Both the position numbers and the translations under genes were made by a program. A stretch of 38,855 bases of DNA from an uncultured Clostridia bacterium. GTDB lineage: Bacteria; Bacillota; Clostridia; TANB77; CAG-508. The stretch spans positions 1-38,855 of the forward strand of contig CALXBZ010000115.1 of assembly GCA_944386665.1 (NCBI GenBank). Direction: 5' to 3'. Below, piece after piece: positions 5,064 through 38,855 of the stretch; positions within the stretch are counted from its first letter, which is position 1, and every line of letters begins with the position of its first letter. The notes beneath the pieces are model-generated. The model searched no databases and had not been told where the DNA came from. It worked only from the letters and a program-made list of their open reading frames with translations.

Positions 5064-5440
5064 AACATATCCTCTAAATCTTTCGGGTTAATATTGCCAT
5101 AGTTATTATAATACTTAACCCAATCTTCTTTATATATATAATCAGCTTTAACTATACGTTCGTAGTTATATTGATTAGGTTTACTCATTTCTGTATGTCC
5201 AACTACAAAGATTAAATCATTAACATCTAACTCATATAAAGCATAATACATTAGTTGTCCTTTAACAAATACTCTAGTCTTATATTTTTCAGTTGTCCAT
5301 CCATACTTTGCTTTACTATCCCTAAGTAAATGTTTACCCTCACATCTGAGTATAACTAAGGGATATTCTCCTGATGTATAATCTTTTATTTCTATTATCT
5401 TTAAGTGGTGATATTCATTTTGTCCTTGATTTAAAATCAT
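5060..5440 (-). CDS. Possible OB-fold / SSB-like protein (126 aa)
   Basis: The order of predicted strands resembles single-strand-DNA-binding proteins: an early strand pair (PLVILRCEGK), then KTRVFVKGQLMYYALYELDVNDLIFVVGH, then YERIVKADYIYKE. Compare the SSB order of W-GKLAE, a GD/V-x-V-x-GR turn and an E-x-VKAD-x-Y strand. The acidic end (PKDLEDML) is like the short acidic tail by which SSBs bind partners. Position in the replication block supports this. Similarity is weak, so another OB-fold or an unrelated beta protein is possible. Linked by ATGA overlaps to the genes on both sides. Confidence 0.4.
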   Translation of the reverse strand: MILNQGQNEYHHLKIIEIKDYTSGEYPLVILRCEGKHLLRDSKAKYGWTTEKYKTRVFVKGQLMYYALYELDVNDLIFVVGHTEMSKPNQYNYERIVKADYIYKEDWVKYYNNYGNINPKDLEDML

Positions 5441-6544: not shown

Positions 6545-6808
6545 TTATCTACCCTTCATATCTATCATTAATGATGTTACCCAAGCTGTAAGCCCTGATG
6601 CCATTAACAAAGCGTCTGTCTTTATACCTTTTTCCTCTGCTCTTTGTAATATCATAGCAAATAAATCTAATCGTTTATCTATTTCTTCTTCTACATTCAT
6701 TGGTGGTTTTTGTTGTTGTTGAAACTGTTGATTGTTATTAAAGTTTCGTTGGTATTGATTACCTCCCCCAAAATTATTGTTGTTAAAATTCTGTCTAGAA
6801 AATGCCAT
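6545..6808 (-). CDS. Asn/Gln-rich low-complexity protein with helical C-domain (87 aa)
   Basis: The first ~35 residues are almost only N, Q, G and F with a few R (prion-like, repeated NNN and QQQ tracts). The rest (NVEEEIDKRLDLFAMILQRAEEKGIKTDALLMASG and on) is a predicted helical domain. A strong AAAGGAGG site lies inside the end of the sigma-factor gene, which it overlaps by 14 bases, so the two are made together. It could be a partner of the sigma factor or an RNA-/DNA-binding condensate-forming protein; that is inference. The family is not recognised. Confidence 0.65.
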   Translation of the reverse strand: MAFSRQNFNNNNFGGGNQYQRNFNNNQQFQQQQKPPMNVEEEIDKRLDLFAMILQRAEEKGIKTDALLMASGLTAWVTSLMIDMKGR

Positions 6809-7499
6809 AAGTAAAATCCTCCTTTAGTTTTGATTGTAATTTTCTACGTAACTTTTTAATACTAGCTCTTATCATTGCTGAACATCTTGCATTACTTATA
6901 TTAAGTTCTTTAGCAATCTGTATTACTTGTTTATTATTATCTAGATATCTTTCTCGTATAGCCTTCTGCGCTATTGGCCTAATAAATTGTAAAAGATATT
7001 CTATTAATGTAATCATTCTTTTAGTATCAATTGTCGTATCCATATTTGTATAAGTAGGCAATGCATTATTTAATTCATACTCGTCAACATCTACTGTTTC
7101 AGCATAATAATCCATATTCATTAATACTTCTGTTCGGTTTCCCATACCCTTATCTTTTAAGTATGCTTTAATTTCATCGGTAGTATTATACAATCTTTTA
7201 GCTTGATAATAATGTGATATATAGTCCGTTATATATCTTGGTATAGTTATCATATTACGTTGTAAGTTTTGTTCTTCTCTTAATCGTCTTGTTAATATCT
7301 TTTGAATATATAGAACACTTTTCTCGGCGATATTGATATTCTTTTTCTTGAGTTTTAAAATAGTTTCATATCCTGCTTGGACTAAATCATCAACATCAAG
7401 TCTATAATCATCCTTTTTTATTTTCAAAGCTACCTTATATATTAATGGTTTATATTTTTTGATGAGTTCCTCATCATTGAATTTTTGTAAGTAGTTCAT
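6795..7499 (-). CDS. Phage-encoded RNA polymerase sigma factor (sigma-70 family)
   Basis: A 234-aa sigma factor. Region 2 is seen at about residues 10-70: KYKPLIYKVALKIK, then LDVDDLVQAGYETILKL, matching the DL-x-Q-G-x-E/I core-binding helix. Region 4 is at about 175-225: AIRERYLDNNKQVIQIAKELNIS then RCSAMIRASIKKLRRKL, the helix-turn-helix that reads the -35 box. The middle is poorly conserved. It should redirect host RNA polymerase to phage promoters, probably the late ones. Near the start of the early operon, downstream of a consensus host-type promoter at 7865-7893, as expected for a middle/late switch. The first codons overlap the upstream 63-aa gene. Confidence 0.85.
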   Translation of the reverse strand: MNYLQKFNDEELIKKYKPLIYKVALKIKKDDYRLDVDDLVQAGYETILKLKKKNINIAEKSVLYIQKILTRRLREEQNLQRNMITIPRYITDYISHYYQAKRLYNTTDEIKAYLKDKGMGNRTEVLMNMDYYAETVDVDEYELNNALPTYTNMDTTIDTKRMITLIEYLLQFIRPIAQKAIRERYLDNNKQVIQIAKELNISNARCSAMIRASIKKLRRKLQSKLKEDFTYGIF

Positions 7500-9479: not shown

Positions 9480-9503
9480 AATTAATTCCTCCTTTATATT
9501 CTT

Positions 9504-9532
9504 ATTATACCCAATAAAAATATTTCATAACA
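9504..9532 (-). promoter_or_regulatory. Probable leftward early promoter
   Basis: TATAAT (9504-9509 complement), preceded by GGG, lies about 25 bases before the start codon of the first leftward gene. The -35 position has only a weak match (TGTTAT at about 17 bases). The GGG-TATAAT core is shared with a site before 17988 on the other strand and, with one extra A, with two sites in the 34-kb gap. Confidence 0.5.
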
Positions 9533-9654
9533 TCTAAAGGATTATATTGTTACATAACTTTACAATAAGGAAGGAAAAGAGAAGGAAAGGGAAAAAGGAG
9601 AGAAGACTTTTTTATTAAGAGGGGAACATTGAGGGGGGGATTTTTTTTCTTTTG

Positions 9655-9674
9655 CTACTATATTTATATAGTAG
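9655..9674 (+). terminator. Perfect AT-rich hairpin followed by T-rich tract
   Basis: CTACTATA-TTTA-TATAGTAG: eight perfect pairs around a four-base loop, followed on the plus strand by TTTTCTTTATT and preceded by another T-rich tract. It could end rightward transcription or be a cruciform in an origin. No rightward gene precedes it, which favours a structural role. Confidence 0.35.
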
Positions 9675-9775
9675 TTTTCTTTATTAAAAAGGGGGAGCTA
9701 AGAAGGGTAATTAATTTTTAGCTATGAGGAATAAGGAATAAGAAAAGAAAAGGATAGCGTACTTTCTTTTACTAG

Positions 9776-9814
9776 ATAATACTATGTAGTACTAAGTATT
9801 ATTCATAATTTTTT
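9776..9814 (+). terminator. Hairpin with downstream T-run in control region
   Basis: ATAATACT (9776-9783) pairs perfectly with AGTATTAT (9795-9802) around an 11-base loop that contains the palindrome TAGTACTA. TTTTTTCTTT follows from 9809. It has the shape of an intrinsic terminator, with a very AT-rich stem. It may isolate the two modules or be part of an origin. Confidence 0.35.
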
Positions 9815-9979
9815 CTTTATAGGTAGTTAAATAACTAACGGAGAATTTCTCCTCAATATATTGTTTGGTTTGTTTATAGTTTTATTGTTTTATGGTTGCT
9901 GTTTGTTTATTCGGTTAGAATTTAATGTTACTGTTTAGCCTTTTCCTTTCTGTTGTTTAGTCTACCCTTCGGAGCCGTC

Positions 9980-10020
9980 GATTAGATTACAGCCGGGCGT
10001 TTTCTGTATTGGGACTAATC
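9980..10020 (+). other. Locally GC-rich folded segment
   Basis: GATTAG (9980-9985) pairs with CTAATC (10015-10020), and ACAG (9989-9992) with CTGT (10003-10006) inside it, around a CCGGGCG loop. It stands out because the surrounding DNA is extremely AT-rich. It could be a structured RNA or a protein-binding site. It is not a tRNA: it has no T-arm or anticodon arm. Confidence 0.3.
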
Positions 10021-10034
10021 ACCATACAAGCATT

Positions 10035-10065
10035 TTGAACAAATTAAAAGTAGTACTATAGTACT
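10035..10065 (+). promoter_or_regulatory. Rightward promoter overlapped by AGTACT operator
   Basis: TTGAAC (10035-10040), a 16-base spacer and TATAGT (10057-10062). The -10 box lies inside AGTACT-AT-AGTACT (10052-10065), two copies of a palindromic hexamer. A protein bound there would block the polymerase. A start near 10069 would leave a ~147-base leader before the first rightward gene. Confidence 0.45.
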
Positions 10066-10178
10066 GGTTATTTTATGGTAGTGTCTAATAAAAAAAAAGA
10101 AATAAAACCATACCCCTATATATAGAATATATACCCCCTATCTTTAAAGAAAAAAAAATAATTTTTTTAAAAAAAATT

Positions 10179-10206
10179 TTGATTTTTAAAAAAAAGATGT
10201 TACAAT
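10179..10206 (+). promoter_or_regulatory. Second rightward promoter, close to the gene start
   Basis: TTGATT (10179-10184), a 16-base spacer and TACAAT (10201-10206), preceded by A/T runs that could act as an UP element. The start would lie near 10213, only about three bases before the ATG at 10216, giving an almost leaderless transcript. Confidence 0.45.
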
Positions 10207-10215
10207 AAATATAGG

Positions 10216-32300: not shown

Positions 32301-33431
32301 ATGGTAGATTATTTAAACTTAGAAGATATAGCTGCTCGATTGGTAGGTAAGAGTAATCCTACTAAAGTATATCACGGCAGTATGTATGGATTATTAGATA
32401 ATGTCGATTTTAATTATTATGGAAAAGGTGAGGGTAGTAAATTTTATGACCCTAATGATGTAGAGCTACCCAATCATTATTCTATAGATGATTATAAAAC
32501 TGCGGGGCATTACGCTGGTAAAGGTTTAGGCTACCCTTTAAACCAGCAAGGAGCTGTAAATATAGAATATCTACCCGATGAAAAATATTATATCAATCCA
32601 GACTTACCCTTTAATCAACAATCTAAAGAAGTACAAGAGGCATTAATTAAAGCAGGGTATTATAATCCTTCAGCATATAATGCTGATGATTATTATAAAT
32701 ATATGAAGGGAGAATTAAGAATAAAAGGTCTATCTCCTATGCAAAAAATAGATTTATATAATCAAATAGATAATGCTCTGACTAAATACGGAGAAAATAA
32801 AGCTATAGAAACTTGGCTAAACTATGTTAATAAAAATCCAGAAGTAAGTTTCTTACCTGGAGAAAAACTAGTTTATGGTGGAAATGACGTATTAAACTAT
32901 AGAGAAGCTTTAAAAGCTGCTAAAGAAGCAGGATTGGAAGGAATTGTAAGATATAAGCCTGCTATGCCAGAAGCTGGTTTAAAAAAAGAAGCCAGAGTAT
33001 TTCAATCACTCCATCCAGAAAATATAGAGATAGCTAACAACCCTAAATTAGGTAGAAGATTATATGGGGATTTTAATGAATATAATAAAACTTTGCAGCA
33101 ATTAGCAGAAGGATTAAATAAAGCTAAAGAACTTCAGCAAGCAATTTTAAATAGACCAGCAATTCAAGGGGTTTTTAATCATCCAATGACTAAGGCTCTT
33201 GGTAAAGCAGCTGGTACAATTATGAACGCTACTAATGCGGTTGGTGATGCTATGTTGGTTGGTGATTATATTAATAAAACTTCTCAATGGCATCCTGATA
33301 ATATCCAATGGAATCAATCTGGTAATCCTATACCTACTAGAGGAGTAGGAATGGTTGTACCAGCTAGCCAGCAACAACCTTGGGAAGCTTCACCTGTTAG
33401 ATTATATGGGGGAATAAGTTACTATGATTAA
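32301..33431 (+). CDS. ADP-ribosyltransferase-like protein (376 aa)
   Basis: The first ~235 residues follow the layout of ADP-ribosyltransferase (ART) domains found in phage polyvalent proteins and toxins. KVYHGS (H25) is the NAD-binding His-Gly. DFNYYGKGEGSKFYD follows at 36-50, then a YAG helix near 70, and INPDLPFNQQSKEVQEAL (98-115), which matches the common LDWDKPLSEQ-x4-V-x2-AL block. AAKEAGLEGIVRYKP comes near 210-225, with the position usually occupied by the catalytic strand and Glu. The C-terminal 140 residues are helical. It sits in the late module between fibre and lysis genes, so it may be packed in the virion and injected. Targets unknown. Confidence 0.6.
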   Translation: MVDYLNLEDIAARLVGKSNPTKVYHGSMYGLLDNVDFNYYGKGEGSKFYDPNDVELPNHYSIDDYKTAGHYAGKGLGYPLNQQGAVNIEYLPDEKYYINPDLPFNQQSKEVQEALIKAGYYNPSAYNADDYYKYMKGELRIKGLSPMQKIDLYNQIDNALTKYGENKAIETWLNYVNKNPEVSFLPGEKLVYGGNDVLNYREALKAAKEAGLEGIVRYKPAMPEAGLKKEARVFQSLHPENIEIANNPKLGRRLYGDFNEYNKTLQQLAEGLNKAKELQQAILNRPAIQGVFNHPMTKALGKAAGTIMNATNAVGDAMLVGDYINKTSQWHPDNIQWNQSGNPIPTRGVGMVVPASQQQPWEASPVRLYGGISYYD

Positions 33432-33972
33432 ACCAGAGCTATTAGATAAACGCCACACATATATCTTATTAGAATATGGAACATCAGCTATTAGTAAGTT
33501 AATACAAAAATTTACTAAGGAATATTATCCAGAAGCTGGAGACCATATACCTACTCACGTACTTGCTCTTAGCTTTGAGGATGGTATCTGGAGAGTATAT
33601 GAATCCCATATGAAGCCTGAGCCTGATGTAGAGTTACCTTCTGGAGTTCGTACATATCCTTTAGATATTCTTAAGCAAGCATTCCCTTCTACTTATTACA
33701 AAGGGGAAGTATATCAAGTAAGGTTTGATAGAAGAAAGTTAAAGAACTATCTTGGACAACCTTATGGTATAGGAGATATTGCTTCTCTTATGGGAGCTGC
33801 TATTACTAATCGTAATGGTAAACAACAGGACCGTAGAGGATTAGTATGTAGTGAGTATTTAGCTTTAGCTCATAAGAATATTAGGAAATATCTCTATTTA
33901 AAATCTCATTGTATTACTCCTATTCATTGGTTAAAATACTTACAAGAGAATCATATACCTAGAGTTTCTTAA
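33424..33972 (+). CDS. Permuted NlpC/P60-like (YiiX/YaeF-type) hydrolase (182 aa)
   Basis: His45 in IPTHVLALSFEDG and Cys142 in RRGLVCSEYLALAH are placed as in circularly permuted papain-like amidases, with E60 (VYESH) a possible third residue and LGQPYGIGDI between. This family cuts amide or ester bonds in cell-wall or lipid substrates. It overlaps the ART-like gene by 8 bases and precedes the lysis genes, so it may help lysis or be a virion wall enzyme. No signal peptide is seen. Confidence 0.6.
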   Translation: MIKPELLDKRHTYILLEYGTSAISKLIQKFTKEYYPEAGDHIPTHVLALSFEDGIWRVYESHMKPEPDVELPSGVRTYPLDILKQAFPSTYYKGEVYQVRFDRRKLKNYLGQPYGIGDIASLMGAAITNRNGKQQDRRGLVCSEYLALAHKNIRKYLYLKSHCITPIHWLKYLQENHIPRVS

Positions 33973-33975
33973 TCT

Positions 33976-34003
33976 TTTATTATATCCCTTTCCAAGAGGA
34001 AAG
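33976..34003 (+). repeat. Hairpin repeat, copy A
   Basis: TTTATTATATCCCT followed by TTCC-AAGA-GGAAAG (stem CTTTCC/GGAAAG). Same as copy B at 34177-34205 apart from the loop and one inserted A. It begins four bases after the stop codon of the 182-aa gene. Confidence 0.75.
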
Positions 34004-34066
34004 AAAAGAAATATATAAAGAAAAGAAAGAGAAGGTTTTCCCTTAGAGGATTTAAAAAGTAAACAT

Positions 34067-34103
34067 AAAAAAATCTAGCCCAAGTAATTACTACTTGCCC
34101 TAG
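34067..34103 (-). terminator. Leftward intrinsic terminator of the predicted small RNA
   Basis: CTAG-GG-CAAGTA-GTAAT-TACTTG-GG-CTAG read leftward (34103 to 34075; outer four pairs, a GG/GG internal loop, six inner pairs), followed directly by A and seven Ts (34073-34067). On the plus strand no T-run follows, so it acts leftward only, although no leftward gene lies upstream of it in this gap. Confidence 0.65.
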
Positions 34104-34176
34104 TTGAATTCCTCTTTATTAAATTAGGATAGCGAATAACCTATCGTTATCAGTAGGGGAGCAAGCTCCGAACTTA

Positions 34177-34205
34177 TTTATTATATCCCTATTCCTGTCG
34201 GAAAG
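34177..34205 (+). repeat. Hairpin repeat, copy B
   Basis: TTTATTATATCCCT then ATTCC-TGTC-GGAAAG. Matches copy A 201 bases away in every base outside the loop except one inserted A. Read leftward, both copies carry GGGATATAAT, close to the GGG-TATAAT boxes at 9.5 and 18.0 kb. Confidence 0.75.
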
Positions 34206-34216
34206 TCTCTACTTAT

Positions 34217-34246
34217 ATTGTACCATACTTAAATAAAAAAAATCAA
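34217..34246 (-). promoter_or_regulatory. Leftward promoter of the predicted small RNA
   Basis: TTGATT (34241-34246), an 18-base spacer and TACAAT (34217-34222), with TGG directly before the -10 giving an extended -10. It uses the same hexamers as the rightward promoter at 10179-10206. Start expected near 34210. No leftward ORF lies downstream. Confidence 0.55.
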
Positions 34247-34300
34247 AAAGTGGTATAAGAATTTTACATATTGATTTTATTTTATAAGGAGAAAATCCTT

Positions 34301-34525
34301 ATGGTAACTGCTTTAACATTATTATTAAGCTTTGTAAATTTTATTTTAATTGTTGGTATTATATTATATTATTTTCATACTCACTTTATAATTATCGATA
34401 GAGATTCTTGGAATACTATTTCAGAATATATGCAAGCATCAGAACCAGAAGAAGTACAAGAACTTCCTGGAGGGAATGGTTTCTTTAAAGAATATATAGA
34501 GGAAGAAGATTATGATGATGAGTAG
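34301..34525 (+). CDS. Single-pass membrane protein, candidate holin (74 aa)
   Basis: I start at ATG 34301 (AAGGAG nine bases upstream), ten codons inside the longer reading. One hydrophobic segment (TLLLSFVNFILIVGIILYYF, residues 5-24) and an acidic cytoplasmic tail (ASEPEEVQELPGG...EEEDYDDE). It lies directly before the endolysin, the normal place for a holin, although a one-segment holin with a long acidic tail is unusual. It could also be an anti-holin or spanin-like protein. Confidence 0.6.
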   Translation: MVTALTLLLSFVNFILIVGIILYYFHTHFIIIDRDSWNTISEYMQASEPEEVQELPGGNGFFKEYIEEEDYDDE

Positions 34526-35282: not shown

Positions 35283-35301
35283 TAAATATAGACAAAAGAA
35301 A

Positions 35302-35335
35302 ACCCGCTTGGATTAATTTCCTTGCGGGTATTTTT
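35302..35335. terminator. Strong bidirectional terminator between converging modules
   Basis: ACCCGC (35302-35307) pairs with GCGGGT (35324-35329), with an inner GGA/TCC stem. ATTTTT follows on the plus strand and TTTTCTTTT on the minus strand. It ends both the rightward late module (last gene 35282) and the leftward early module (last gene ends at 35340). Confidence 0.9.
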
Positions 35336-38333: not shown

Positions 38334-38798
38334 TTATAGTATATTATGTTTCTCTAATTCTATATTGATTTGTTTATATAATTCTGTTGGGTCTTTTATA
38401 TGGTCGATATTGTATACTTTTATTTCTACCCTAGGATTATCTCTATCTATTCCTCCATCTGTATATAACACCATAGGTATATTACTAGCTTTATCATCTG
38501 GTAACTTACCACATTCAACTAGAGCATCTTCAAAGAATTTTTGATGGATAGATAGAACATTACCTATATCAAATCTTCTGTTATCACCTTTAAATACTTG
38601 ATATAGTATAGCTATCTTTTCGTATCTAGGTTTATCTTGTATCTGGTCTACAATAGCTTGCTTATATTTAATCTTTGCTACGTTTAAAGTTCTGAAATAA
38701 GTATTGCGATAGTTGTTAAGATTAAGAATAAAAAATCTTTCCTTACCTTTTTTATCTATGCTTAATCTAATCTTTAAAGGACTTACTATCTTATACAT
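38334..38798 (-). CDS. RusA-like Holliday junction resolvase
   Basis: 154 aa. The C-terminal half has the RusA signature: RRFDIGNVLSIHQKFFEDAL (D and N ligands), then ECGKLPDDKAS with the DD pair, ending RVEIKVYNI. It cuts four-way DNA junctions and clears replication intermediates before packaging. The start codon lies inside the terminal repeat and is preceded by AGGAGG, which confirms that the circular joint runs through the operon. Confidence 0.9.
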   Translation of the reverse strand: MYKIVSPLKIRLSIDKKGKERFFILNLNNYRNTYFRTLNVAKIKYKQAIVDQIQDKPRYEKIAILYQVFKGDNRRFDIGNVLSIHQKFFEDALVECGKLPDDKASNIPMVLYTDGGIDRDNPRVEIKVYNIDHIKDPTELYKQINIELEKHNIL

Positions 38799-38855
38799 TA
38801 AACCTCCTAATTTACTCTGATAAAGATTTACTCATATTATACCTCATATCTTTCA
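38779..38855. repeat. Terminal direct repeat, right copy (circular overlap)
   Basis: Identical to bases 1-77. Contains the first codons of the RusA-like gene, the intergenic AGGAGG site and the last codons of the 73-aa gene. Removing one copy gives a 38,778-bp circle. Confidence 0.95.

Follow-up and report, generated by a model that had tools for sequence, protein, structure and literature searches.

A candidate small-RNA gene with a conserved promoter, terminator and repeat pair on the minus strand of a phage genome from an uncultured Clostridia bacterium

The spacer between a late gene for a 182-aa protein and the lysis genes of a phage probably carries, on its minus strand, a phage small-RNA gene, predicted from an extended −10 promoter and an intrinsic terminator that enclose about 144 nt of noncoding sequence. 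This agrees with a preliminary description of the same DNA, and the gene is now supported by comparison with a relative, L139, as well. The elements of the cassette, their order and their conservation in a relative are established. We judge it probable that the minus stretch 34246-33976 is a phage regulatory cassette that makes a short terminated noncoding RNA from a host-type promoter. Because L139 has the cassette elsewhere and with a different RNA body, it looks more like a regulatory unit than like a plain antisense brake on lysis.

The contig and its features

The window, that is, the whole stretch of 38,855 nucleotides analysed here, is the entire contig C115 of a 1.22-Mb, 97% complete metagenome-assembled genome. 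Because its ends share a 77-bp direct repeat, the contig reads as a complete circular phage genome of ~38.8 kb, binned with a small-genome bacterium; misassembly was ruled out on the same ground. Late genes run rightward from the terminase at 11.6 kb through p56 at 35.3 kb, and early genes run leftward on the other side. The following features of the window are used below.

1-77 and 38779-38855: direct terminal repeat, 77 bp
33424-33972, plus strand: late gene, 182 aa, upstream neighbour of the RNA and not overlapped by it; no known family
33976-34003, minus strand: DR2, second repeat copy, beyond the terminator and close behind the stop codon of the 182-aa gene, CTTTCCTCTTGGAAAGGGATATAATAAA
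33988-34044, minus strand: T-rich element M2 with the core TTTATATATTT, overlapping DR2
34067-34103, minus strand: intrinsic terminator, an interrupted 10-bp stem CTAG-GG-CAAGTA / TACTTG-GG-CTAG, then A and T7 (U7)
34067-34210, minus strand: predicted noncoding RNA of ~144 nt, start near 34210, end in the U-tract
34177-34205, minus strand: DR1, direct repeat, RNA nucleotides 6-34, CTTTCCGACAGGAATAGGGATATAATAAA
34217-34246, minus strand: promoter, −35 TTGATT (34246-34241), 18-nt spacer, extended −10 TGG-TACAAT (34225-34217; TACAAT 34222-34217)
34301-34525, plus strand: p84, 74 aa, downstream neighbour, ATG behind AAGGAG (34286-34291), one predicted membrane segment
34570-35028, plus strand: endolysin, Phage_lysozyme (PF00959)
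35296-35335: bidirectional terminator hairpin CCCGC...GCGGG where late and early operons converge, the strongest of the genome on both strands

The early region also encodes a sigma-70-like protein (phrog_351; 6795-7499, minus strand), for which tblastn found no homologue in the related phages searched; such a protein could direct phage-specific promoters. Terminase relatives of the phage are present in IMG/VR and in gut metagenome-assembled genomes. A portal search of 50,697 phage records returned no relatives, and no closer relatives were found through the 182-aa protein, the lysozyme or the gap DNA in phage records, IMG/VR and 390 host-family genomes, the DNA search of the host-family genomes being swamped with short AT-rich chance matches.

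A promoter and a terminator frame a short noncoding stretch

The leftward extended −10 promoter (TTGATT-18-TACAAT with TGG) and the leftward intrinsic terminator with T7 given in the preliminary description are both present on the minus strand, the latter at 34103-34067. Genome-wide, sigma-70-like sites are not enriched (47 found, 55 expected), and there are 4 extended −10 sites whose −35 matches at 4/6 or better, against 2.8 expected. As promoter-like strings are not enriched in this AT-rich DNA, the promoter alone is weak evidence and by itself proves nothing; the weight rests on its position, its pairing with the terminator and the comparison with relatives.

Indirect but consistent signs suggest that the minus promoter is a host sigma-A promoter. 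Its 19-nt core, TATGGTACAATATAANTAG, occurs in four IMG/VR contigs, namely L139 and three others from unrelated phages; in these three it lies closely 5' of an ORF, correctly oriented. Two of five inspected host-family matches overlap the promoter, and both (L261, L265) lie directly before a ribosome-binding site and start codon. The phage late promoter at 10175-10206 of the window is of the same class (TTGATT ... TGTTACAAT). The strict promoter pattern, searched in 380 genomes, matched the window only.

The terminator hairpin has a folding energy of −9.2 kcal/mol (z −2.2). Scored as hairpin plus T-tract it reaches d = 6.9 and ranks second in the genome, both strands considered, to the convergence terminator at 35302; 0.42 terminators of this quality are expected per shuffled genome. 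It escaped a simple scan, and the GG/GG internal loop is the probable cause.

Exactly one place in the genome, 34246-34067 on the minus strand, combines an extended −10 promoter whose −35 matches at 4/6 or better with a terminator of d ≥ 0 lying 40-300 nt beyond it. Such a frame appeared at least once in 2 of 400 dinucleotide-shuffled genomes (10/400 at d ≥ −10), which bears out the earlier claim that the pair is unlikely by chance; since the thresholds were fixed post hoc, with the case already known, we put chance at about 1-2%. One mark of a phage-encoded small RNA, its own promoter and intrinsic terminator around a short noncoding stretch predicted to be transcribed, was found here.

The length of ~144 nt and the lack of an ORF were likewise confirmed: all three RNA frames are broken, ruling out a hidden small ORF in 34067-34210. 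A conserved plus-strand ORF across the gap in relatives, named beforehand as a finding that would speak against the gene, was not seen, and G073 and G080, relatives in which the late-operon end is covered, have no such gap there. The several hairpins of the preliminary description do not exceed chance (fold z +0.44 and +0.34 against shuffles), and as the RNA overall folds no better than shuffles we give them no weight. The 144-nt RNA had no Rfam match at gathering score; low-score matches of miRNA type fell on purine tracts and were rejected as noise.

The cassette is conserved in a relative phage

When the gap was compared by blast with the relatives retrieved, three short matches fell on L139 (also L002; IMGVR 3300012973_000128), whose terminase is 65% identical to that of the window phage. 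All three are on one strand and in one order: the promoter (24 nt at 92%), the terminator tail (26 nt at 85%) and a downstream stretch (67 nt at 75%). The promoter counterpart lies at 5033-5056 of L139, with 22/24 nt identical, and the terminator counterpart at 5276-5311. Compared by hand from the two folds, the terminators share eight pairs, of which six are unchanged, two are changed on both sides (G-C to A-U) and none is broken; in both phages CAACTA precedes and GATTTTTTTAT trails the hairpin. The gapped alignment of the cassettes reaches a score of 124.9, whereas the highest among 1000 shuffles within 40-nt blocks was 98.7 (0/1000); for its promoter-to-terminator part alone the two values are 71.2 and 68.2.

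The RNA bodies, 144 nt in the window and about 250 nt in L139, are not alignable (69/300 and 578/1000 shuffles as good). What is collinear in L139, on the same strand, is the promoter, the terminator, the T-rich element and the 5'-end direct repeat with its second downstream copy. The label 'orphan' in the preliminary description has to be withdrawn in so far as L139 has the same promoter, terminator and repeat cassette, L139 being the one relative in which the full cassette was found. There the cassette occupies the interval that separates the divergent early and late operons; it is oriented in the early direction, and no gene lies opposite to it.

The direct repeat has no further copies anywhere in the window. 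Its core is an inverted repeat, CTTTCC-N4-GGAAAG, which stands just after the start site and again about 200 bp downstream. The L139 repeat differs in sequence (CTTTCTTGACGGAACGGGCTCAGGAGCAGGGGAGATAA and a near copy) and occupies the same two places as DR1 and DR2; neither pair was equalled in shuffles (0/500 each). That the copies are more alike within than between genomes points to a functional pair. In G436 the repeat pair is weak (12/300 shuffles).

Five related phages have M2 in their early/late divergence region, a finding supported by block shuffles for L139 and G436 and by position and sequence only for G073, G080 and G437. In G436 a strong early-direction promoter (TTGACA, then TGG-TATAAT) precedes M2 by 205 bp. 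The cassette is missing from the divergence region of the window itself (9480-10215), which also shows no significant similarity to the RNA body (153 and 159 of 200 shuffles).

Position of the RNA relative to the lysis genes

The preliminary description suggested that the RNA regulates the lysis genes, or a hydrolase encoded by the 182-aa gene, by antisense. The term hydrolase is supported by no family match. The RNA ends 95 nt from the stop codon of that gene and starts about 75 nt before the ribosome-binding site of p84, so that both ORFs and the p84 ribosome-binding site lie outside it. OOP-like RNAs cover coding sequence or the translation start of a target on the other strand; 34067-34210 was found to cover neither. 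The proposed targets gain no support from the relative or from predicted pairing: the L139 cassette lies opposite no gene, and among 50 phage translation starts the best pairing, with the 182-aa gene at −36.8 kcal/mol, is equalled by 9 of 100 shuffled RNAs. An antisense role on the lysis genes or the 182-aa gene is possible, and readthrough across the RNA is likely because plus-direction late genes flank both sides; we do not take antisense control of lysis as the primary function because the cassette of this phage sits elsewhere than in its relatives.

The p84 protein is a possible holin; its match to Holin_SPP1 is sub-threshold. The endolysin appears to have been exchanged within the group, the PF00959 lysozyme of the window being replaced at the corresponding place in G073 and G080 by an unrelated protein that resembles M15-type peptidases by eye. 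The same p56-like small protein trails the endolysin in the window and the 143-aa protein in the other two phages.

L126 8732-9163 and L129 5877-6308: 143-aa protein, M15-type peptidase-like, G073 and G080

Other noncoding elements in the phage group

Three relatives, G073, G080 and G437, carry a candidate structured RNA of ~80 nt in the divergence region, directly divergent from the late operon and behind a conserved promoter-like sequence. It has a closing stem GGCAUCC/GGAUGC and two hairpins. In three sequences only, and with the structure drawn from their own folds, covariation is strong: 96.6% of cells over 20 pairs are paired and 7/20 pairs are changed on both sides (0/500 shuffles). This RNA has no Rfam match, and its covariance model (R1) detected it in neither the window nor L139. 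The model rules out the 144-nt RNA as a homologue: the best score in 33900-34350 is 7.3 bits, on the other strand, against 94-99 for members. A second conserved noncoding element, with the consensus GGGTGCTAATCCCC ... CTATTCGACG, lies in the early/late divergence region of six phages, the window phage included.

L127 4949-4864, minus strand; L128 11251-11331, plus strand; L248 19388-19468, plus strand: ~80-nt RNA candidate
Window 9950-10039, minus strand, and the divergence regions of L127, L128, L136, L139 and L244: GGGTGCTAATCCCC ... CTATTCGACG element

Comparison with known phage RNAs

The nearest in kind are lambda OOP and PAK_P4as15, and by analogy the window RNA may work partly like them. 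As the cited accounts describe it, OOP is a leftward RNA of 77 nt (pO-oop-tO), antisense to cII (PMC5869508, PMC12197685). Like the predicted RNA, OOP in these accounts is short and leftward, has a promoter of its own and an intrinsic terminator, runs opposite to the main rightward transcript, and lies near regulatory and replication sequences (PMC5869508, PMC12197685). As described there, the action of OOP depends on a 52-base overlap with the end of cII, whereas the predicted RNA overlaps no ORF; a sequence relation between the two was not found in Rfam, and the repeat-framed layout is a feature of the predicted RNA for which those accounts of OOP describe no counterpart. PAK_P4as15 of Pseudomonas phage PAK_P4 is listed as endolysin-associated and was found by sequencing (PMC12197685); the window RNA, known from prediction, occupies the spacer that precedes p84 and the endolysin gene. 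P22 sar and lambda aQ are presented in the same source as phage RNAs that control development genes by antisense or base pairing, with ant and Q as their known targets (PMC12197685), whereas the window RNA has no assigned target. We do not file the window RNA in the antisense class, because the overlap with a coding target that defines this class was looked for and not found.

Discussion

Tentatively, we propose that the RNA is an independent base-pairing regulator, not a dedicated lysis antisense, whose promoter is controlled through the paired repeats. Host RNA polymerase would transcribe the ~144-nt RNA from the sigma-A promoter, and transcription would end at U7. With DR1 at the 5' end of the RNA and DR2 in the conserved T-rich element just past the terminator, the repeats are putative operators for a dimeric phage regulator of the minus promoter; the RNA itself would most likely act through base pairing. 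In relatives the cassette is at home in the early/late divergence region, with no gene opposite, which speaks for a function independent of the lysis genes. At its lysis-side position the RNA could also pair with the late transcript crossing the spacer, and leftward transcription may collide with that transcript, lowering or delaying lysis gene expression. Given that DR1 pairs with the late-mRNA copy of DR2 and that leftward transcription opposes the late transcript, damping of the lysis genes is possible but secondary.

That the RNA is instead a cis-antisense RNA dedicated to lysis timing, pairing or colliding with late mRNA between the 182-aa and lysis genes and so delaying lysis, we consider unlikely. 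It does lie opposite the late transcript, directly before the lysis genes; the pairing of DR1 with the late-mRNA DR2 (−30.3 kcal/mol) was equalled by none of 200 shuffles, and the report of PAK_P4as15 offers a phage precedent for an endolysin-associated antisense RNA (PMC12197685). Yet no ORF or ribosome-binding site is overlapped, the homologous L139 cassette has nothing opposite, and no such gene is present at the end of the late operon in the relatives for which that end is covered. A body that is not conserved and folds no better than shuffles gives an RNA function no structural support, and the conserved ends and repeats could mark a DNA element. In that case the repeats and the AT-rich element, which are conserved more strongly than the RNA body, would form a replication origin or an operator or looping array, with the promoter only opening the DNA or being part of the control. 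The inverted-repeat core and the location in relatives at the early/late divergence fit such an element, but the leftward U7 terminator, with pairs changed on both sides in L139, would have no role in a purely DNA element, and we regard this explanation as quite improbable.

Very improbable indeed is an AT-rich spacer that merely happens to hold promoter-like and terminator-like strings: the frequency of promoter-like strings and the unremarkable fold are what chance would give, but the joint frame (2/400) and the collinear conservation in L139 (0/1000) are not. It is a more doubtful thought that the cassette is mobile or exchangeable, with conserved promoter, terminator and repeats around a swapped or fast-evolving body, and has moved from the early/late switch to the lysis genes; if so, its RNA would vary from phage to phage as a regulator or decoy adapted to the host.

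Judged from the sequence, the short phage-encoded RNA gene is likely real, and its layout of conserved ends, variable body and framing repeats is unusual. Comparison with relatives argues against the obvious antisense-of-lysis reading, and the promoter, terminator and repeats of the cassette give exact testable ends. Noncoding RNAs have hardly been described in phages of uncultured gut bacteria; the window RNA together with the covarying RNA of three relatives suggests that this phage group encodes small RNAs at regulatory hubs.
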